Under the pieces are notes generated by a model, which did no database searches, had not been told where the DNA came from, and saw only the letters and a program-made list of their open reading frames with translations. Shown piece by piece: positions 24,476 through 34,739 of a DNA stretch of 57,425 nt. A program made the position numbers and the translations under genes. Every line of letters starts with the position of its first letter. Positions within the stretch are counted from its first letter, which is position 1. The DNA is from Alphaproteobacteria bacterium (lineage in GTDB: Bacteria; Pseudomonadota; Alphaproteobacteria; UBA2966), in contig JASLXG010000008.1 in NCBI GenBank assembly GCA_030740435.1, forward strand, positions 1 through 57,425, read 5' to 3'.

Positions 24476-25528
24476 TCAGTTCCGGTCTTTGTTGGTCTCG
24501 GCGATCGCCGCGCTGATGGCCGCCTGGTCGAGCCCCTGCTGGCCGATCACCACCAGGCGGCTCGAGCGATCCTCGCCGGGCCGCCAATCGCGGTCGTAAT
24601 AGTGCTGCACCCGGCCGCCGACGGCCTGGACGACGAGCCGCATGGCCTTGGCCTCGACGGCCACGAAGCCCTTGATGCGCAGGATGTCGTGGGCCGCGAT
24701 GACGGGCTCGAGCCGGGCCACCAGGGCCTGGGGCTCGGGGATGGCGGCAAAATCGAGAGAAAAGGTCTCGAAGTCGTCGTGGTCGTGCTCGTCGGCGCCG
24801 TCGTGGTGCGAGGGCCGGTTATCGAGATCGTCCTCGGCCGCCGCCGCCAGGCCCAGCAGCACGGCGGCGTCGATGCGGCCGTGGCTGGCCGTCACCACCT
24901 TGACGGCGGGCCTGAGTTCCCGGGCGAGCTCGCGGTTGACCAGATCGAGATCCTCGGCCGCCAGCAGGTCGGCCTTGTTCAGCACCACCAGGTCCGCCGC
25001 GCCCAGTTGGTCCTCGAAGACCTCTTCCAGCGGGCTTTCGTGATCGAGATTGTCGTCGGCCCGGCGTTGGGCCTCTATGGCCTCGGGGTCGGCGGCAAAG
25101 CGGCCGGCGGCCACGGCATCGCCATCGACCACCGCGACCACACCGTCGACCGTCACCCGGGTACGGATCTCGGGCCAGTTGAAGGCCCGCACCAGAGGCT
25201 TGGGCAGCGTCAGACCCGAGGTCTCGATGATGATGTGGTCGGGCGGCTGGGCGCGTTCGATCAAGCTTTGCATGGTGGGCAGGAAATCGTCGGCCACGGT
25301 GCAGCAGATGCAGCCGTTGGCCAGCTCGACGATATCGCCGTCTTCGCAGGCCTCGATGCCACAGCCCTTGAGCACTTCGCCGTCGACGCCGATGTCGCCG
25401 AACTCGTTGATCACCAGGGCCAGCCGGCGGCCATTGGCGGTTTCCAGCAAATGCCGGATGACGCTGGTCTTGCCGGCCCCGAGAAAGCCGGTGATGACGG
25501 TGGCGGGGATCTTGTGGACGCCGGTCAT
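24476..25528 (-). CDS. cobW: CobW, cobalt-linked GTPase chaperone
   Basis: This 350-residue G3E-family GTPase has the P-loop GFLGAGKTS at residues 14-22, a Glu-bearing switch INEFGDIGVDGE, the metal-binding ELANGCICC motif (CxCC), the IIETSGLTLP segment and the guanine motif LNKAD. A later stretch SHHDGADEHDHDD is His-rich. The C-terminal CobW_C domain is present. CobW is thought to deliver Co(II) to the CobN chelatase, which fits its position directly before cobN. Its ATG overlaps the stop of a 34-codon reading frame as ATGA, and a B12 riboswitch lies upstream. Confidence 0.94.
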   Translation of the reverse strand: MTGVHKIPATVITGFLGAGKTSVIRHLLETANGRRLALVINEFGDIGVDGEVLKGCGIEACEDGDIVELANGCICCTVADDFLPTMQSLIERAQPPDHIIIETSGLTLPKPLVRAFNWPEIRTRVTVDGVVAVVDGDAVAAGRFAADPEAIEAQRRADDNLDHESPLEEVFEDQLGAADLVVLNKADLLAAEDLDLVNRELARELRPAVKVVTASHGRIDAAVLLGLAAAAEDDLDNRPSHHDGADEHDHDDFETFSLDFAAIPEPQALVARLEPVIAAHDILRIKGFVAVEAKAMRLVVQAVGGRVQHYYDRDWRPGEDRSSRLVVIGQQGLDQAAISAAIAETNKDRN

Positions 25529-25629
25529 GATGCCTCTGCGCACGACATGGGGCGGGCGGTAGACATTTCCAGCGCTCTGGTATCGGGTTTTGGGCCAGGC
25601 ACGGCCATCAGGCTAAACACTCTAAGCAT
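25525..25629 (-). CDS. Short reading frame between the riboswitch and cobW (34 residues)
   Basis: A 34-residue frame (MLRVFSLMAVPGPKPDTRA, then LEMSTARPMSCAEAS) starts at an ATG preceded by GGAGGG and ends in ATGA overlap with the cobW start. It sits directly after the riboswitch and a small hairpin TTGGGATTTCCCAA (25644-25657 on the plus strand: TTGGGAAATCCCAA). Its translation would deliver ribosomes to cobW, so it may be a leader peptide that couples riboswitch control to cobW. No family was recognised, and it could be non-coding. Confidence 0.5.
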   Translation of the reverse strand: MLRVFSLMAVPGPKPDTRALEMSTARPMSCAEAS

Positions 25630-25661
25630 CCTCCCTCCGAGGATTGGGAAATCCCAAATGC

Positions 25662-25821
25662 CGTCGACGAGGTGTCCTGGCTCGGGGTCAAGGGCCGCGG
25701 CGCCTTCCCGGCGCACTTGCGCCAGTGGCTTTTGCCGGGCCTCGCCGCTCACAGTTGCGGGGGCAGCGCCGGCCTGGCCCAAGCTCTAGCCCCAGGCGTC
25801 ACCGGCTTCCCTCGGTCGACA
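25662..25821 (-). ncRNA. Cobalamin riboswitch controlling cobW-cobN-cobO-cobQ
   Basis: Read on the minus strand, the landmarks appear in order: GTCGACCGAGGGAAGCCGGTG at the 5' side, the B12-box core GCTGCCCCCGCAACTGTGA (plus-strand 25747-25765), AAGCCACTGG, CCGGGAAGGC and GAGCCAGGACACCT at the 3' side. The two ends share the self-complementary GTCGAC (25815-25820 and 25663-25668), which would close the P1 helix. A possible promoter TTGTCG - 18 bases - TAGTGT lies just upstream. It should reduce expression of the chelatase operon when adenosylcobalamin is abundant. Confidence 0.94.
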
Positions 25822-26007
25822 AGCGCGGACACTAGCACGGCCCGGGCGGGCGCGACAAACCCGCGCAGGGTCAAATTTGTGGCAAAAATTGGGTGATATA
25901 TCAGCCGGACTCATGATATGTCCTTACCGCGAGTAAGTGATAATGCCAAGGCAGCGGGGCGGGCGCCGCGGCAACACGAAACCTAGGATCCGGGGAGAGG
26001 TTCCGAG

Positions 26008-29000
26008 ATGGCGGCCAGGCCCGCAGCGACGCCCCAAGACAACACCGTCAGCGGCGCCGTGCTGGTGGTCGGTGGCGGCATTGCCGGCATGCAGGCCTCG
26101 ATCGAACTCGCCGACCCCGGTTACAAGGTCTACCTGGTCGAAAAGAACTCGGCTATCGGCGGCCACATGGCCCAGCTCGACAAGACCTTTCCCACCAACG
26201 ATTGCGCCATGTGCACCATTTCGCCCAGATTGGTCGACGTGGGGCGGCACCTCAATATCGAGCTTCTGACCGACAGCGAAGTGGAAGCGGTAACCGGCTC
26301 CCCCGGCGCCTTCAGCGCGAGGTTACGGACCAAACCGCGCTACATCGATCTCGAGCGCTGCAACGGCTGCGGCGACTGCGCCAAGGTCTGCCCGGTGGCG
26401 GTGCCCAACGCCTTCAACGAAGGCCTCAACCAGCGCCGCGCCGCCTACAAGCTTTATCCCCAGGCCACGCCGGACGGCTTCGCCATCGACAAACGCGGCC
26501 TGGCGCCCTGTCGCGACGCCTGCCCCACCGGCCAGCGCGCCCAGGGCTACATCGCCCTGATCGCGGCGGGGCGCTACGACGAGGCCTACCGCACGATAAA
26601 AGAGGACAATCCCTTCCCCGCCATCTGCGGCCGCATTTGCAATGCGCGCTGCGAGGAAGCCTGCAGCCGCGGCCGGGTCGATGCCCCGATCGCCATCCGG
26701 GCGCTTAAGCGCTTCGTTACCGACACCCAGATGGCTGGCCCGCGCCAGCCCGTCGAGCCCGCCGAGCGCCGCCACGACCAACGCATCGCCATCATCGGCG
26801 CCGGCCCCTGCGGCCTGACCGCGGCCCAGGATCTTTGTCGCGCCGGCTACGGCGTCACCATCTACGAAGCGCTGCCGTTGGCCGGCGGCATGCTGCGCGT
26901 GGGCGTGCCCGAATACCGCCTGCCGGCCGAAATCGTCGAGCGCGAGATCCAGGACATCCTCGACTTGGGTGTGGAACTCAAGCTCAACACGCCGGTCGAA
27001 AGCCTCGATGCCCTGCAGGCCGAAGGTTATGCCGCCGTGCTGATCGCCGTCGGCGCCCACGAAGGCATCCGCCTGCCGATCCCCGGCAACGAGCTCGCGG
27101 GGGTTTTGATCAACACCCAATTCCTGCGCGACGTGCGGCTGGCCGAGACGGATTTGGCAACCAGCCCGGCCAGCGCCGTCAAGAGCCGCCGCGTGGTGGT
27201 GCTGGGCGGTGGCGACGTCGCTTTCGACTGCGCCCGCACAGCACTCAGGCTGGGTGCCAGCGCGGTCGAGATCGCCTGTCGCGGCAGCCGCGGGGTGTGG
27301 CCGGCCAGCGACCACGAACTGGCCGAGGCCCGGGCCGAGGGCATCGGGCTGCATATAGGGCTCAACTATTTGGGCCTGATCGACGACGGCAGCGGCGCCG
27401 TCGCCGGCCTCGAATGCGAGCGCGTCGAGCGTTTCGAGGCCGGCGAAGATGGCCGGCCGGTGGCCCACGTGGCGCCCGATTCGCGTTTTACCATCGCCGC
27501 CGAGGTGGCCATTTTCTCGGTCGGCCAGAAGGCCGGCCTGGCCTTCATCCCCGAGGACGCGGGCGTCGGTATCACGGCCAGCCGCACCATTGCCGTCGAC
27601 GGCAATACCTTCGCCACCGACCGCCCCGGCGTCTTTGCCGCCGGCGATGCGGTCAGCGGTACGGCCTTCGTCATCGAGGCCGTCGACGGCGGCCACCGGG
27701 CGGCTGCGACCATCCAGCGCTACCTCGAGGGCGAGGCGATCGAGGTTGCCGAGCCCGAACCCGTCCCCACCGTCGAGATTCCCGACTCCGAGCTGGAAGC
27801 CAAGCTGGCCCGGGGTGAGATCGTGCCGGCGCCACAGGTGCCGGTGCCGACCGTGGCGGCCGAGGCGCGGCGCGATAATTTCGCCGAGATCGAGACCGGC
27901 TACAGCGAAGCCGAGGCCCAGGCCGAGGCCGCGCGCTGTCTCGATTGCGGCATCTGCGCCGAGTGCCTGGCCTGCGATTTCGCCTGCGGCGTCGATGCCA
28001 TCGCCCACGAGATGGTCGAACAAAAGCGCCAGATCGAGGTCGGCGCCGTGGTCCTGGCACCGGGTTACCAGACCTACCGGGCCGAACTTTCCGAGGAATT
28101 CGGCTTCGGCCGCTATGCCAACGTCATCACGTCCTTGCAGCATGAGCGCCTGCTCTCGGCCTCGGGCCCGACAGACGGCCACGTGCAGCGGCCTTCGGAC
28201 GGCGAGACGCCCAAGAAGATCGCCTTTTTGCAGTGCATAGGATCGCGCGACCAGAATCACGATTACTGCTCGGCCGTGTGCTGCATGTACGCCGCCAAGC
28301 AGGCCATCATGGCCAAGGAACACGAGCCCGAGACCGAGGTTCGCGTCTTCATGATGGACATGCGCTCGTTTTCCAAGGGCTATGAGGGCTATTACCAGCG
28401 GGCCAAGGAAAAGTACGGCGTCGGCTACACGCGTTGCCGCATTTCGGGCCTCAAGGAACAGCCCGGGAGCAAGAACCTGCTGGTGCGCTATCTCAACGAC
28501 GGCGGTAACGGCATGGTCGAAGAAGAATTCGACCTCGTCGTGCTGTCGGTGGGCATGGAGATCTCGCAGGGCGTGCGCGACTTGGGCCGGCGGCTGGGGG
28601 TGGAACTCGACGATTACGGTTTCTGCCAGACGCAGCACTTCGATCCCTTGCAGACCAGCCGCCCCGGCATCTATGCCGTCGGGCCCTTCCGCGAGCCCAA
28701 GGACATACCCGATTCGCTGGTCGAGGCCAGCGCCGCCGCGGCCCAGATCGGCGGCCTGCTGGCGGCCGGGCGCCACACCCTGACCCGGGCGCCCGATTTT
28801 CCGCCCGAACGCGACGTCAGCGAGGAAGAGGCCCGCACCGCCGTCTTCGTCTGCCACTGCGGCACCAACATCGCCGGTTTCCTCGACGTCGACGCCGTGG
28901 CCCAATATGCCGGCGGGCTTTCCGGCGTCATCCACACCGAGCACACCATATACGCCTGTTCGCAGGACTCGATCGCCCAGATCAGCGACACCGTGCGCCA

Positions 29001-30582
29001 GACCGGCGCCAACCGCGTCGTCATCGCGGCCTGCACGCCGCTCACCCACGAGCCGCTGTTCCGCTCCAGCCTGCGCGCCGCCGGCCTCAATCCCTACCTG
29101 GTCGACATGGCCAACATCCGCAACCAGTGCTCCTGGGTGCATTCCCACGACTGGGACCGGGCCACCGGCAAGGCCAAGGACCTGGTGCGCATGTCGACGG
29201 CCCGGGCGGCGGCCCTTGAGCCCCTGGGAACCTCCGAGATGGCGGTGGAAAAGGCGGCCCTGGTGATCGGCGGCGGCCCGGCCGGCATGACGGCGGCGCT
29301 GGCGCTCGCCGAACAGGGTTTCCCGGTACACCTGGTGGAACGCGACGAGGCGCTGGGCGGCAACCTCAGGCACCTGCATTTCGGCCTGGTTGAGTTCGGC
29401 ATCGGTGGCGGGCTCAGTGACGGTAAACCGGCCTCGCCGGGCGAGCTTCTGGCCGATCTCGAGGCACGGCTGGCCGCTGATCCGCTGGTCACGCTGCACC
29501 TGGCCAGCGAGCTCGTGGCCAGCAGCGGTTTCATGGGAAACTTCGCCTCGACGCTACGTGACAAGGACGGCCGAGACAGCGAGATCCGCCATGGCGTCGT
29601 GGTGGTGGCCACCGGCGGCCGGGAATACCGAGGTGATGAATACGGTTTGGGCAGCCGGCCCGACATAGTCACGCAGCAGGAATTCGAGACCAGGCTGGCC
29701 GCCGACGAGACGCCCGACGAGGTGGTCATGATCCAGTGCGTCGGCCCGGCCGAGAAATATTGCGGCCGCATCTGCTGCACTTCGGCGCTGAAGAACGCCC
29801 TGGTGCTCAAGCGCCGGCACCCCGAATCCCGCATCACCATCCTTTACAAGGACATCCGGACCTACGGTTTCAAGGAACGCCTCTACACCCAGGCCCGCGA
29901 GGCCGGCATCCTGTTCGTGCGTTATGACGACGGACGGCCGCCTCTGGTCCCTGCGGTGGAGCCGGGCGAGCGGCTGACGGTGCGCGCCCATGAGCCCATA
30001 CTCGGGCGCGAGCTCGAACTCGCCGCCGACTTGCTCGTGCTCTCGACCCCGGTGGTGCCGCACCCGGCGGCCGGCGACGTGGCGGTGCGGCTCAAGGTAC
30101 CCTTCGACATGGACGGCTTTTTCATGGAGGCCCACGCCAAGCTCCGGCCCATGGATTTCCTCTCCGAGGGCATCTTCATGGCCGGCATGGCACACTACCC
30201 CAAGCTTCTCGAAGAAGCCATCGTGCACGCCCGGGCGGCGGCCTCGAGGGCCGCCACCGTGCTGTCGCGTGACACCATCACCACGGGCGGCGCCGTGGCG
30301 GCGGTGGATCAGGAGATCTGCGTGGCCTGCCTGACCTGCGTGCGCAGCTGTCCCTTCGGTGCGCCGCGCATTGCCAAGGATCTGGCCGGCGTCGGCGCCA
30401 TCGCCGGAGCCGCGCACATCGAATCCGCGCTCTGTCAAGGTTGCGGACTTTGCGTCGCGGCCTGCCCGGCCGGGGCCATCGATCTCAGGCACTTCACCGA
30501 CAGCCAGATCATGGCCAAGGTCGACGCCATGTTCGGGCCCACGGGGCCCCAGCCCCAGCCTCAGCCGGAGCCGGTGGGATGA
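26008..30582 (+). CDS. hdrA: Giant HdrA-type electron-transfer flavoprotein with inserted GltD-like NAD(P)H module
   Basis: This 1524-residue protein has a composite layout. Residues 1-135 are an HdrA FAD start (VVGGGIAGMQAS at 20-31) and a ferredoxin motif CNGCGDCAKVCP (118-129). Residues about 165-575 are GltD-like: C168/C172 and C207-C219 clusters, an FAD site IIGAGPCG (263-270), a nucleotide site VVLGGGDVAFDCARTA (397-412) and AAGDAVSGT. HdrA features then resume with CIGSRDQN and CSAVCCMYA, followed by a second HdrA unit (VCHCGTNIAG, VIGGGPAGM, CVGPAEKYCGRICC) and two C-terminal clusters CVACLTCVRSCP and CQGCGLCVAACP. It probably takes electrons from NAD(P)H and may bifurcate them to MvhD, HdrCB and MetFV. 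ATGA overlap couples it to mvhD. Confidence 0.9.
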   Translation: MAARPAATPQDNTVSGAVLVVGGGIAGMQASIELADPGYKVYLVEKNSAIGGHMAQLDKTFPTNDCAMCTISPRLVDVGRHLNIELLTDSEVEAVTGSPGAFSARLRTKPRYIDLERCNGCGDCAKVCPVAVPNAFNEGLNQRRAAYKLYPQATPDGFAIDKRGLAPCRDACPTGQRAQGYIALIAAGRYDEAYRTIKEDNPFPAICGRICNARCEEACSRGRVDAPIAIRALKRFVTDTQMAGPRQPVEPAERRHDQRIAIIGAGPCGLTAAQDLCRAGYGVTIYEALPLAGGMLRVGVPEYRLPAEIVEREIQDILDLGVELKLNTPVESLDALQAEGYAAVLIAVGAHEGIRLPIPGNELAGVLINTQFLRDVRLAETDLATSPASAVKSRRVVVLGGGDVAFDCARTALRLGASAVEIACRGSRGVWPASDHELAEARAEGIGLHIGLNYLGLIDDGSGAVAGLECERVERFEAGEDGRPVAHVAPDSRFTIAAEVAIFSVGQKAGLAFIPEDAGVGITASRTIAVDGNTFATDRPGVFAAGDAVSGTAFVIEAVDGGHRAAATIQRYLEGEAIEVAEPEPVPTVEIPDSELEAKLARGEIVPAPQVPVPTVAAEARRDNFAEIETGYSEAEAQAEAARCLDCGICAECLACDFACGVDAIAHEMVEQKRQIEVGAVVLAPGYQTYRAELSEEFGFGRYANVITSLQHERLLSASGPTDGHVQRPSDGETPKKIAFLQCIGSRDQNHDYCSAVCCMYAAKQAIMAKEHEPETEVRVFMMDMRSFSKGYEGYYQRAKEKYGVGYTRCRISGLKEQPGSKNLLVRYLNDGGNGMVEEEFDLVVLSVGMEISQGVRDLGRRLGVELDDYGFCQTQHFDPLQTSRPGIYAVGPFREPKDIPDSLVEASAAAAQIGGLLAAGRHTLTRAPDFPPERDVSEEEARTAVFVCHCGTNIAGFLDVDAVAQYAGGLSGVIHTEHTIYACSQDSIAQISDTVRQTGANRVVIAACTPLTHEPLFRSSLRAAGLNPYLVDMANIRNQCSWVHSHDWDRATGKAKDLVRMSTARAAALEPLGTSEMAVEKAALVIGGGPAGMTAALALAEQGFPVHLVERDEALGGNLRHLHFGLVEFGIGGGLSDGKPASPGELLADLEARLAADPLVTLHLASELVASSGFMGNFASTLRDKDGRDSEIRHGVVVVATGGREYRGDEYGLGSRPDIVTQQEFETRLAADETPDEVVMIQCVGPAEKYCGRICCTSALKNALVLKRRHPESRITILYKDIRTYGFKERLYTQAREAGILFVRYDDGRPPLVPAVEPGERLTVRAHEPILGRELELAADLLVLSTPVVPHPAAGDVAVRLKVPFDMDGFFMEAHAKLRPMDFLSEGIFMAGMAHYPKLLEEAIVHARAAASRAATVLSRDTITTGGAVAAVDQEICVACLTCVRSCPFGAPRIAKDLAGVGAIAGAAHIESALCQGCGLCVAACPAGAIDLRHFTDSQIMAKVDAMFGPTGPQPQPQPEPVG

Positions 30583-31034
30583 GCGACTTCGAGCCCCGCA
30601 TCATCGCCTTTTGCTGCCAGCATTGCGCCTACGCGGCGGCCGATCTGGCCGGCGGGGCGCGGCTCAGCTATCCCGATTCGCTACGCATCGTGCAGCTTCC
30701 CTGCACCGGCCGGGTCGACGTGCTGCACGTGCTGAAAAGCTTCGAGGAAGGCGCCGACGGGGTCCTGGTGGCGGGCTGCCTGCCCGGGCTTTGCCATTAC
30801 CTCAAGGGCAACCTGCACGCCCGCCAGCGCATCGACTACGTGCGCCGGATGCTCGACCAGATCGGTTTCGAGAGCGACCGTGCCCGCATGATCAACATCT
30901 CGGCCGCCATGGGTGCCCGTTTCGCCGAACTGGCGACGGAGTTCGGCGAGCGCATCCGCGAGCTCGGCCCCAATCGGCTGGCCGCGCCCACCCCAGCGAC
31001 GCCGCAATTCGAAAACCTGGAGGCAACGCCATGA
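30579..31034 (+). CDS. mvhD: MvhD-like hydrogenase iron-sulfur subunit
   Basis: This 151-residue protein belongs to the MvhD/FlpD family, which carries a [2Fe-2S] cluster and hands electrons to HdrA. Cysteines sit where expected: FCCQHCAY (residues 11-18), LPCTGRVD, then GCLPGLCHY. No hydrogenase catalytic subunit is encoded in the window, so it is likely used as an electron-transfer subunit, as in acetogen methylene-tetrahydrofolate reductase complexes. It overlaps hdrA upstream and metV downstream by four bases each (ATGA), implying a fixed subunit ratio. Confidence 0.9.
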   Translation: MSDFEPRIIAFCCQHCAYAAADLAGGARLSYPDSLRIVQLPCTGRVDVLHVLKSFEEGADGVLVAGCLPGLCHYLKGNLHARQRIDYVRRMLDQIGFESDRARMINISAAMGARFAELATEFGERIRELGPNRLAAPTPATPQFENLEATP

Positions 31035-31747
31035 TCGTGGCGGAACAGAAACCGCTCAGCGAGATCCGCAAGATGCTGGCCGAGCACAAGAAGGTCTTGG
31101 CCGTGGGCTGCGGCACCTGCGTCACGGTATGCTTTTCCGGTGGCGCCAAGGAAGTCGGCATTTTGGCCTCGGCGCTGCGCATGTCGGCGGGGCTCGAGGG
31201 CGAGGCCCTGGAAGTGGACGAGGCCATGGTGCAGCGCCAGTGCGAGGCCGAATACCTGGAGCCGCTGAGCGAGAAATTCGCCGAATATGACGCCGTGCTT
31301 TCGTTGGGCTGCGGCGTCGGCGTGCAGTCCATCGCCCAGCACCTGCCGGGCAAACGCATCTACCCGGCGCTCAACACCACCTTCATGGGTGCCCCCACCG
31401 AACAGGGCGTCTGGGAGGAACGCTGCCAGGGTTGCGGCAACTGCCTGCTGCACATCACCGGCGGGGTCTGTCCGGTGTCGCGCTGTTCGAAGCAGCTTTT
31501 CAACGGGCCATGTGGCGGATCGCAAGCCGGCGCCTGCGAGATCGACGAGGCCACGCCCTGTGCCTGGCAGATGGTCTGGGAGCGCATGGGCGCGCTGGGC
31601 CTGATCGACGAGCTGATGGAGGTGCAACCGCCCAAGGACTGGTCCACCAGCCGCGACGGCGGGCCCCGCCGCATCGTCCGCGACGACCTCAGGCTGCCGC
31701 CCGAGGGCGAGGAATACGGGGAAGAAGAGGCGGAGGGGGTGGCATGA
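31031..31747 (+). CDS. metV: MetV-like methylene-tetrahydrofolate reductase C-terminal (Zn/Fe-S) subunit
   Basis: This 238-residue cysteine-rich protein matches the MTHFR C-terminal-domain family, known as MetV in acetogens, where it partners MetF and carries clusters and/or zinc. Cysteine motifs include VGCGTCVTVCFSGG (C27, C30, C34), LGCGVGVQS, RCQGCGNC, VCPVSRCSK and GPCGGS. An acidic tail EGEEYGEEEAEG closes the protein. It overlaps mvhD and metF by four bases each. Its place between MvhD and MetF suggests that it passes electrons from the Hdr part to the MetF flavin. Confidence 0.88.
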   Translation: MIVAEQKPLSEIRKMLAEHKKVLAVGCGTCVTVCFSGGAKEVGILASALRMSAGLEGEALEVDEAMVQRQCEAEYLEPLSEKFAEYDAVLSLGCGVGVQSIAQHLPGKRIYPALNTTFMGAPTEQGVWEERCQGCGNCLLHITGGVCPVSRCSKQLFNGPCGGSQAGACEIDEATPCAWQMVWERMGALGLIDELMEVQPPKDWSTSRDGGPRRIVRDDLRLPPEGEEYGEEEAEGVA

Positions 31748-32748
31748 GCAACACCGCCGAAGTCCAGGATACGGCGTCGGGCCAGAAGTCCCGATCCCGG
31801 CTCGAACGCGTCCTCGCCGACGGCCATTTCGCCGTCACCGGCGAGATCGGTCCGCCCAAGGGTTGGGACCCAGAAGTCATCGAAAAGAAAGCCGAGCTTT
31901 TGGCCGGCTACGTCGACGGCGCCAACATCACCGACAACCAAACCGCCATCGTGCGCATGTCCTCGATCGCCGCCGGCATCATCGCCAAGCGAAAAGGCCT
32001 GGAGCCGATCATCCAGATGACCTGTCGCGACCGCAATCGCCTGGCCATACAGAGCGACCTCTTGGGCGCCGCGGCGCACGGCATCAACACCATCCTTTGC
32101 CTCTCGGGCGACCACCAGTCGTTCGGCAACCATCCCGGGGCCAAGAACGTCCACGACATCGATTCGCTGCAACTCGTGCAGATGGTCAAGGGGCTGCGTG
32201 AGGGCCGCTTCCAGTGCGGCGAGGAAATCAAGGGTGGCGGCCCCGGCTACTTCGTCGGCGCGGCGGCCAATCCCTTCGCCGAGCCCTACGACTGGCGGCC
32301 CTACCGCCTGGCCAAGAAGGCCACCGCCGGGGCCGACTTCATCCAGACGCAGTTGATCTACGACATGGACCATTTTCGCGCCTATATGAAAAAGGTCGTC
32401 GATCTCGGCGTCCACGAACGGACCAAGATCTTGGCCGGCGTGGGGCCGCTCAAATCCACCGGCATGGCCAAGTACATGCGCGACCGTGTGCCGGGCATGA
32501 TGGTGCCCGAGGCCTGCGTCCAGCGCATGGCCGGTGCCGTGGCCGAGGTCGACCCTGACGACAAGCCGGCCCGGGCCGAGGCCTGGCGGGCCGAGGGTAT
32601 CAAGCTCTGTATCGAGCAGATCCAGGAGATCCGCGAGATCGAGGGCGTGGCCGGCGTCCACATCATGGCCATCGAATGGGAGGCCGCGATCAAGCCGCTG
32701 GTCGAGGGCGCCGGGCTCTACCCGCGGCCCGAGGTGGGGGACGATTGA
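31744..32748 (+). CDS. metF: Methylenetetrahydrofolate reductase MetF
   Basis: MetF is a TIM-barrel flavoprotein interconverting 5,10-methylene- and 5-methyl-tetrahydrofolate. The 334-residue protein has the catalytic Glu in VTGEIGPPKGWD near residue 33, the NITDNQ motif, the folate-binding IQMTCRDRNR, the LCLSGDH motif and a TQLIYD motif. A family member working alone would use NAD(P)H directly; here it lies between metV and hdrCB, so reduction by the Fe-S complex is more likely. The product, methyl-tetrahydrofolate, is the methyl donor of B12-dependent methionine synthase, which would explain the nearby cobalamin genes. Confidence 0.92.
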   Translation: MSNTAEVQDTASGQKSRSRLERVLADGHFAVTGEIGPPKGWDPEVIEKKAELLAGYVDGANITDNQTAIVRMSSIAAGIIAKRKGLEPIIQMTCRDRNRLAIQSDLLGAAAHGINTILCLSGDHQSFGNHPGAKNVHDIDSLQLVQMVKGLREGRFQCGEEIKGGGPGYFVGAAANPFAEPYDWRPYRLAKKATAGADFIQTQLIYDMDHFRAYMKKVVDLGVHERTKILAGVGPLKSTGMAKYMRDRVPGMMVPEACVQRMAGAVAEVDPDDKPARAEAWRAEGIKLCIEQIQEIREIEGVAGVHIMAIEWEAAIKPLVEGAGLYPRPEVGDD

Positions 32749-32750
32749 AG

Positions 32751-34148
32751 GTGGACGCCAGAGTCGAATCCGTGCCCGCGGCAGCGCTTTCCCAGACCGT
32801 TCTCGAAGCCATCGGCGAGAACGTCTTTCGCTGCTACCAGTGCGTCAAATGCTCGTCCGGCTGCCCCTTGGCGGCGCACTTCGACCTGACCCCGAACCAG
32901 GTCATGCGTTCGCTGCAACTGGGATTGCCGGACGTGCTGGAAAGCCGCGCCATCTGGCTTTGTGCCTCGTGCCACACCTGCGCCACGCGGTGTCCGCAGG
33001 AGATCGACGTCACCGCCGTGATGGATACGCTGCGCCAGGAGGCAAAAAAGCGCGGCATCGCCCCGGCGATCCCCGAGATCGCCCACTTCAACGACATCTT
33101 CCTGGCCAACATCAAGCTCTTCGGCCGGGTCTTCGAGGTCGGCCTGATGGGGCTTTTGAACCTGCGCCTGGGCCAGCCGTTCCGGCACCTGGACCTGGCC
33201 TGGCAGATGCTCAAGCGCCGCCGCCTGGGGTTTTTGCCCAAATTCGTGCGCCCGGCCAGGAAGGCCAAACCCGCCACCGGCAAACAAGCCGTCGCCTACT
33301 TCCCGGGCTGCGCCCTGGAGGGCTCGTCGGCGGAATACGACCGCACGGCGAGGCGCGTGGCAAAGCAGCTCGGGATCGACCTGGTCGAGCCGCCAGGCTG
33401 GACCTGTTGTGGCTCCAGCCCGGCCCACGCCAGCGACCACACCCTGGCCACGGTGCTGCCCATGCGTACCATCGCCACGGTCGAAAAGATGGGCGTCGAC
33501 ACCATTACCTCGCCCTGCTCGTCTTGCTTTGCCAGGCTCAAGACGGCCGAGCACGAGGTGACCAGCGACCAGCGCGCGGCGGCCGCAGCCGAAGCCGAGA
33601 CCGGCTACACCTACCAGGGCGGCGTCAGCGTCGAGCACCTGATCGACACGCTTTACCGAAAGGCCGGACTCGACGCCATCGCGGCCCAGGTGTCCAAGCC
33701 GCTCGAGGGCCTGAAAGTGGCCTGTTACTATGGCTGCCTGATCACCCGGCCGGCCAAGCTGACCGGCGCTGCGCACTACGAATACCCGCAGCAAATGGAC
33801 GAGCTAATGCGGGCCTTGGGGGCCGAGCCCGTGGACTGGTCGTTCAAGACCGAATGCTGCGGCAATTCGCTGAGTCTGACCCAGACCGAGGTGGCCACGG
33901 AGCTCTCGGGGCGTGTGGTGCGCAATGCCCAGGACTGCGGCGCCGAGGCCGTCGTCACCATGTGCCCCATGTGCCACCTGAATTTGGATGCCCGCCAGCC
34001 CGAGATGAGGCTCGAAGCGCCGGTTCCCATCCTGCATGCCACGCAGTTGATGCTGCTGGCCTTCGGCAGCGACGAGGGGACGGCCGAGCTTTCGAAGAAC
34101 ATCACCGACCCGCGGCCGCTGCTAGATGCCAAAGGGGTGTTAGGATAG
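32751..34148 (+). CDS. hdrCB: HdrC-HdrB fusion (heterodisulfide reductase-like)
   Basis: This protein of about 465 residues begins with an HdrC part holding two [4Fe-4S] motifs, CYQCVKCSSGCP (28-39) and CASCHTCATRCP (71-82). It continues as HdrB with two CCG domains: PGCALEGSS, CCGSSPA and CSSC in the first, YGCLITRPA, CCGNSLSL and CPMC in the second. In methanogens these bind noncubane clusters. No heme or membrane helix is seen, so the complex is soluble. The GTG at 32751 is preferred (GGGGG nine bases ahead); a TTG at 32745 overlaps the metF stop. It is the last gene of the complex. Confidence 0.88.
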   Translation: MDARVESVPAAALSQTVLEAIGENVFRCYQCVKCSSGCPLAAHFDLTPNQVMRSLQLGLPDVLESRAIWLCASCHTCATRCPQEIDVTAVMDTLRQEAKKRGIAPAIPEIAHFNDIFLANIKLFGRVFEVGLMGLLNLRLGQPFRHLDLAWQMLKRRRLGFLPKFVRPARKAKPATGKQAVAYFPGCALEGSSAEYDRTARRVAKQLGIDLVEPPGWTCCGSSPAHASDHTLATVLPMRTIATVEKMGVDTITSPCSSCFARLKTAEHEVTSDQRAAAAAEAETGYTYQGGVSVEHLIDTLYRKAGLDAIAAQVSKPLEGLKVACYYGCLITRPAKLTGAAHYEYPQQMDELMRALGAEPVDWSFKTECCGNSLSLTQTEVATELSGRVVRNAQDCGAEAVVTMCPMCHLNLDARQPEMRLEAPVPILHATQLMLLAFGSDEGTAELSKNITDPRPLLDAKGVLG

Positions 34149-34181: not shown

Positions 34182-34739
34182 ATGAAAATCAACATGGGCT
34201 GCAGCACGCGCAAGCTCGAGGGCTATGTCAACCTCGACGGCGAGGACACCTTCGCGCCCGACGTGGTGCACGACCTGGAAAGCTTTCCCTGGCCCTTCGA
34301 CGACAACGCCGCCGAGGAAGTGGTGTTCAACCACGTGCTGGAACACCTAGGCGAGACCTCGAAGGTCTTCCTCGGTATCATGTCCGAGCTCTACCGAATT
34401 TGCGCGCCCAGCGCCCAGGTGGTGATCAAGGTGCCGCACCCGCGCCACGACGACTTCATCAACGACCCCACGCATGTGCGGCCGGTGACGCCGGAGATGC
34501 TGGCGCTTTTCGATCTCGAGCTGAACCGCGAGTGGCAGTAAAAGGGCGGCGCCAATTCCAAGCTGGCCATGGCGCTGGGCGTCGACTTCTCGATCGAACA
34601 GGTGGCCATCGTGCCCGAGAAGGTCTACCAGGAGAAACTCGACGCCGGCGAGCTCACCCTGCAACAGATCGCCAACATCGCCCGCAAGGACCTCAACGTC
34701 ATCCGCGAGACCATCATCCTGCTCAGGGCGCGAAAGTAG
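34182..34739 (+). pseudogene. SAM-dependent methyltransferase-like protein interrupted by an in-frame TAA
   Basis: From an ATG at 34182 a frame of 119 residues reads KINMGCSTRKLEGYVNLD and has the acidic VFNHVLEHL motif of small class I methyltransferases, as found in polysaccharide and cell-surface enzymes. It stops at TAA (34539-34541) after NREWQ. The same frame then continues for 65 codons (KGGANSKLAMALGVDF to LLRARK) to a TAG at 34739, and that tail looks protein-like. One substitution, for example CAA or GAA to TAA, explains the break. An intact product would be about 185 residues. The first part may still be translated alone. Confidence 0.7.

Follow-up and report, generated by a model that had tools for sequence, protein, structure and literature searches.

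A GltD-interrupted HdrA in a methylene-tetrahydrofolate reductase operon of an alphaproteobacterium in whose genome acetyl-CoA synthase was not found

The HdrABC-MvhD-MetVF complex of Moorella thermoacetica (Mock et al. 2014) contains an HdrA of 162.8 kDa, in which extra ferredoxin and TrxR-like domains are interrupted by GltD and followed by the C-terminal half of HdrA (PMC9430772). NADH oxidation and NADH:benzyl viologen activity have been reported for this HdrA (PMC9430772). Electron bifurcation has been proposed for the Hdr-type methylene-tetrahydrofolate (methylene-THF) reductases (MTHFR), that of Moorella included, and a reverse mode with menaquinone has been proposed for Moorella on methanol (PMC13391211). 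A 2018 survey found bifurcating MTHFR to be narrowly distributed and, except for Fix, almost no bifurcating enzymes in aerobes (PMC6085437). The open-licence literature yielded nothing specific on the Hdr-type MTHFR complex in aerobic proteobacteria. The GltD-inserted layout of HdrA is itself already known; the unexpected part of the present finding is its hosts.

The analyzed DNA (the window) is a stretch of 57,425 nucleotides from an alphaproteobacterial genome (GCA_030740435.1, contig JASLXG010000008.1). It encodes an HdrA fusion of 1524 residues as the first gene of a contiguous five-gene operon on the plus strand, hdrA-mvhD-metV-metF-hdrCB, in which each of the first three genes overlaps the next by ATGA. 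A preliminary description of the sequence had overlooked this operon context. The features are as follows.

24476..25543, minus strand: cobW, first gene of a divergent cobalamin cluster (cobW-cobN-cobO-cobQ and so on); context, outside the complex
25649..25835, minus strand, opposite the operon: cobalamin riboswitch (RF00174) upstream of cobW, in the gap that separates the cobalamin genes from the hdr-met operon; context
26008..30582, plus strand: hdrA fusion ORF, ATG start, 1524 residues; HdrA N-terminal part, GltD/NfnB-like module, rest of HdrA, second HdrA with two C-terminal [4Fe-4S] clusters
26008..26496, plus strand: HdrA part 1 (residues 1–163); FAD motif GGGIAG 22–27, [4Fe-4S] motif CxxCxxCxxxC 118–128
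26497..27738, plus strand: GltD/NfnB-like insert (residues ~164–577); Cys 168/172/207/211/215/219, FAD motif GAGPCG 264–269
within 26497..27738, plus strand: nucleotide site of the insert; NAD(P)H-type motif GGGDVA 400–405, then CRGSR 424–428
27925..28797, plus strand: HdrA part 2 (residues ~640–930); Cys-rich stretch 644–660 with CxxCxxCxxxC at 650, bifurcation-type residues E713 and K764
28825..30540, plus strand: second HdrA unit (residues ~940–1511); N-terminal Cys 949/951/984/1009/1041, FAD motif 1088–1093
within 28825..30540, plus strand: further sites of the second HdrA unit; E1227, K1262, Fe-S motifs CxxCxxCxxxC 1438–1448 and 1476–1486
30579..31034, plus strand: mvhD (FlpD family, PF02662); ATGA overlap with the hdrA stop
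31031..31747, plus strand: metV (MTHFR C-terminal Fe-S subunit, PF12225); ATGA overlap with mvhD
31744..32748, plus strand: metF (MTHFR, PF02219); ATGA overlap with metV
32751..34148, plus strand: hdrCB fusion (Fer4 dicluster and two CCG domains); start GTG 32751 or TTG 32745

Pfam, NCBIfam and PDB-sequence comparisons are all concordant on the domain order of the fusion, and the domain search upholds the order given in the preliminary description: HdrA, a GltD-like unit with its Fe-S helical domain, HdrA, a second HdrA and two clusters. The three FAD-type motifs (at residues 22, 264 and 1088) and the single NAD(P)H-type motif (at 400) do lie on one chain, as had been claimed. Matches within the insert are to Fer4_20 (166–242), Pyr_redox_2 (259–561) and NCBIfam PRK12771 (163–679). 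The earlier reading would have failed had this region lacked a nucleotide site; it has the GGGDVA motif and a GltD/NfnB fold, and agrees with GltD/NfnB in both fold and cofactor motifs. Of the ORFs selected in the window, this one has the top codon-position GC score.

An AlphaFold2 model of residues 1–935, calculated with 34 aligned sequences (mean pLDDT 84, pTM 0.80), supplied the structure prediction that had been proposed earlier, and a single HdrA fold was found spanning the insert. Modelled residues 11–922 superpose on solved HdrA chains (8rvy_A: Z 44.9, 422 residues, 1.9 Å), and residues 162–660 on NfnB/StnC-type chains (9bov_A: Z 41.4), with Z values of ~30–41 against NfnB, StnC and GltD chains over this region of the predicted model. 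Since the model aligns to HdrA over the outer range and to NfnB/StnC over the inner one, the insert interrupts one HdrA fold: the GltD/NfnB-like module is predicted to split a single HdrA unit mid-way, with the HdrA fold rebuilt from both flanks.

Across 82 homologues, little or no variation is seen in the cluster cysteines or in the three FAD motifs. A chance or assembly fusion is excluded because these features are kept, and a frameshift artefact is likewise ruled out by the intact domain order in the 82 homologues. Two E/K pairs of the kind that mark bifurcating HdrA flavins, E713/K764 and E1227/K1262, are kept in nearly all of them. The reference pair, E356/K409 of M. thermolithotrophicus HdrA, was placed by motif and HMMER alignment, and the second pair was assigned through its similarity to the first. 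The GltD module has a GxGxxA motif, and its nucleotide loop differs by lineage: this protein has CRGSR, most Chloroflexota have ACLESR and other sequences YRR, in a pattern that follows no clear rule for NADH or NADPH. Some Chloroflexota loci encode a second, diverged GltD-HdrA fusion with the nucleotide loop GGGITALDAAAVARRLG...LDRPRG (L044:7249-11838, L045:17022-21572, L046:8367-13133, L056:19264-23853 and L090:14573-19414), and the nucleotide site of the GltD module seems to have been altered repeatedly.

The function of the fusion is set by its membership of a methylene-THF reductase operon. All genes of a Hdr-type (type IV) enzyme, namely metV, metF, mvhD, hdrA, hdrB and hdrC, are present in this one operon, and the 1524-residue protein is almost certainly the HdrA subunit of a Hdr-type (type IV, Moorella-type) MTHFR, as judged from sequence; architecture and operon likewise follow from sequence and fold. 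A glutamate synthase (GltD) function is not favoured, as the GltD equivalog cut-offs were not reached and the operon is that of an MTHFR. For a heterodisulfide reductase of methanogenesis, the HdrA cut-offs were not reached either, though HdrA2 is the top match. An Rfam match to Actino-pnp at 26064-26112 scored under the gathering score and was taken as chance. Downstream of hdrCB, an ORF of 119 residues (34182-34541, plus strand) resembles a shortened SAM-methyltransferase-like protein and has no Pfam match; its counterpart in a congener has 185 residues (L020:9780-10337).

Scanning of GTDB contigs turned up 206 stretches that encode relatives, of which 78 loci, Chloroflexota in the majority, were kept. 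The full domain order is found in 82 ORFs, one of them that of the window, from 73 sequences or loci, again mostly of Chloroflexota, where the GltD-inserted fusion is common; it also occurs in Myxococcota, Thermodesulfobacteriota, Armatimonadota and other metagenome-assembled genomes (MAGs). Where enough downstream sequence was available, the fusion is accompanied by mvhD in 52/52 loci, metV in 46/52, metF in 41/52 and hdrCB in 35/52. Many Chloroflexota (L033, L035, L036, L042, L049, L050 and similar loci) have a tandem HdrA without GltD, together with MvhD, directly upstream of the GltD fusion. Among Alphaproteobacteria, two of 385 sampled genomes encode the full protein, one being the present genome; besides these, it was found in one congener and some MAGs. 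The fusion is not unique to this genome, with intact homologues in others. Nor is it widespread in Alphaproteobacteria, which was the finding that could have overturned the preliminary description; its statement that the insertion is uncommon holds for this class, but not for the form as such, which has been described for Moorella and is common in Chloroflexota. The congener has an operon of identical gene set, also with cobW upstream, and its proteins are 82–91% identical. In a quick tree, whose midpoint root serves for drawing only, all 13 alpha/beta/gammaproteobacterial sequences fall on one side of a branch (SH-aLRT 95). They adjoin three Myxococcota-labelled sequences and sit among Chloroflexota, a position that fits lateral spread.

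Acetyl-CoA synthase (PF03598) was not found in the host genome (98.6% complete), where the gene set of Wood-Ljungdahl acetogenesis is incomplete. Among carriers of the fusion, acetyl-CoA synthase is present in 0/14 alpha/beta/gammaproteobacterial genomes compared to 30/34 others (Fisher p = 6e-9, a significance overstated by the relatedness of the genomes, which are not independent). CooS-type CODH (TIGR01702, curated cut-off) is absent from the host and 15 other alpha/beta/gammaproteobacterial genomes. All 16 alpha/beta/gammaproteobacterial carriers, the host with its one copy included, encode a COX1-family protein, a family to which NO reductases also belong. From its genes, the host appears to be a respiring marine bacterium that probably uses oxygen and lacks an acetate-making pathway.

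The host also encodes formyl-THF synthetase and two further MetF proteins, one high-scoring (C74) and one in a corrinoid demethylation-type operon (G000:C38, L115:621-7503). This operon encodes a B12-binding protein, a URO-D-type methyltransferase, a pterin-binding methyltransferase, DUF1638, RACo, and its own MetF with a MetV C-terminal-domain protein; the latter MetF/MetV-like pair could do the same job as that of the hdr-met operon. Seven MttB-family matches were found in the host, one adjoining a dimethylglycine-dehydrogenase-like gene. Counted among carriers only, MttB-family genes are present in 11/16 alpha/beta/gammaproteobacterial genomes (the host and 10/15 others), and the methyl donors must differ because the remaining 5/16 are without them. 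At L029 (gammaproteobacterial label), choline dehydrogenase and choline ABC transporter genes lie beyond the operon, and at L079 (proteobacterial), an MttB-family gene and a GcvT/sarcosine-dehydrogenase-like gene lie downstream. In the host genome, both the neighbours of the operon and loci elsewhere are indicative of corrinoid methyl chemistry. The host has two further HdrA systems by sequence. The second (G000:C204, L098:3878-14003), with soxYZ/soxB-like, sat, qmoA-/qmoB-like HdrA and HdrCB-like genes named by eye from translations, is probably for sulfur oxidation. A cluster at G000:C5 (L099:4646-14165), also read by eye, contains HdrCB, 2-oxoacid:acceptor oxidoreductase subunits, a canonical HdrA of 651 residues, MvhD and Flx-like genes, and would be the third.

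We infer the direction, the acceptor, bifurcation and any preference for NADH or NADPH from this context. The complex probably oxidizes methyl-THF, with flavin bifurcation to NAD(P)+ and a higher-potential acceptor that is probably quinone. MetF and MetV would handle the folate, and HdrCB and MvhD would shuttle electrons to or from the HdrA core. There, two HdrA-type FADs, each with an E/K pair, and one GltD-type FAD would split the electrons, and the GltD module would exchange hydride with NAD(H) or NADP(H). The complex would mainly turn methyl-THF into methylene-THF, the reverse of its use in acetogens, and the exergonic branch to the higher-potential acceptor, most likely the quinone pool via a putative partner, would pay for endergonic NAD(P)+ reduction through the GltD module. 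The high-potential acceptor is a guess, as no membrane or quinone-binding partner is encoded within the hdr-met operon. The preliminary description saw in the layout a built-in entry for electrons from NAD(P)H. A pyridine-nucleotide port is indeed likely, since the Moorella HdrA of like layout is reported to oxidize NADH (PMC9430772), but the word "entry" presumes a direction; because the genome lacks acetyl-CoA synthase, the electrons more probably leave via this module.

For the same reason, methyl-THF has no evident large-scale consumer. The oxidative bifurcating mode is favoured because of this, because several systems could make methyl-THF from methylated compounds, and because the energetics are suitable. 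Using published folate, NAD and quinone potentials (PMC9430772, PMC13391211), we computed ~+23 kJ/mol for methyl-THF oxidation by NAD+ alone, compared to ~-29 to -37 kJ/mol for 2 methyl-THF + NAD+ + ubiquinone and ~-1 with menaquinone. Run in the opposite direction, NAD(P)H would reduce methylene-THF with bifurcation to low-potential ferredoxin or flavodoxin, yielding methyl-THF or reduced ferredoxin. That the layout equals that of Moorella HdrA, for which the reductive direction was first proposed (PMC5861303), is in keeping with this, as are a slightly exergonic value computed for 2 NADH + methylene-THF + ferredoxin (~-4 kJ/mol) and the C5 2-oxoacid:acceptor oxidoreductase/HdrA cluster, which suggests ferredoxin use in the host. 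However, the host has neither acetyl-CoA synthase nor CooS-type CODH as a bulk consumer of methyl-THF, the former is missing from all tested alpha/beta/gammaproteobacterial carriers, and the high-scoring MetF at C74 could cover biosynthesis, all of which makes the reductive direction rather improbable.

A different wiring, in which electrons pass among NAD(P)(H), the folate and a further carrier with no true bifurcation, or the GltD/NfnB-type FAD, and not the HdrA FADs, is the site of bifurcation, would agree with the best alignment of the insert (162–660) to NfnB/StnC-type chains of bifurcating transhydrogenases, and some HdrA homologues are non-bifurcating (PMC9430772). We nevertheless regard it as unlikely in view of the two conserved HdrA-type E/K pairs. 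The rarity of the fusion in the class, and the position of the clade among Chloroflexota and Myxococcota forms, as lateral transfer would give, could also suggest that the operon is a relic, or a lateral acquisition, with little use to the host, or that its contig contaminates the genome bin. This is very hard to reconcile with a congeneric genome that shares both the operon and its cobW neighbour, and with cofactor residues that are all intact.

Oxidation of methyl-THF coupled to NAD(P)+ reduction leads to a broader, tentative proposal: a respiring alpha/beta/gammaproteobacterial clade without acetyl-CoA synthase may have taken over the Hdr-type MTHFR of acetogens and may run it oxidatively, bifurcating methyl-THF electrons to NAD(P)+ and ubiquinone. 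If so, methylated compounds such as osmolytes would supply the clade with NAD(P)H through their methyl groups, and ubiquinone would give a large driving force in respiring hosts. COX1-bearing proteobacteria that have the full complex, and not acetyl-CoA synthase, make the second electron carrier and the direction testable in respiring hosts.

Among known systems, HdrCBA-MvhD-MetVF of Sporomusa ovata has the same subunits, but its HdrA (101 kDa) lacks a GltD domain and has two FAD sites (PMC9430772). In type III HdrA of methane-metabolizing archaea, GltD is inserted in HdrA as it is here (PMC12054007). However, the archaeal protein, insert aside, is reported to be akin to single (type I) HdrA, whereas a second HdrA unit and MetVF are found here; its nucleotide motif is reported as GxGxxG compared to GGGDVA, and a Bathyarchaeota cluster has mvhADG (PMC12054007). 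The HdrABC-MvhD-MetVF clusters of marine Anaerolineae (PMC5736913) are alike in gene set, with hdrCB also fused in DscP3, and so is the Hakuba actinobacterium cluster, in the order hdrA-mvhD-metVF-hdrCB (PMC7325909). The genomes with these clusters carry the Wood-Ljungdahl pathway, in contrast to the present host without acetyl-CoA synthase. Matched against its published description, the Moorella complex is similar in that the subunits are encoded together, HdrA is interrupted by GltD and followed by the HdrA C-terminal half, and both E/K pairs are present; the GltD-interrupted unit with a second HdrA behind it is that of the Moorella form, as are the single NAD(P)H motif and the three FAD motifs (PMC9430772). 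The present complex differs from that of Moorella in its host, where a haem-copper oxidase is encoded and acetyl-CoA synthase is lacking, and in the fusion of HdrC with HdrB in the gene order hdrA-mvhD-metV-metF-hdrCB.
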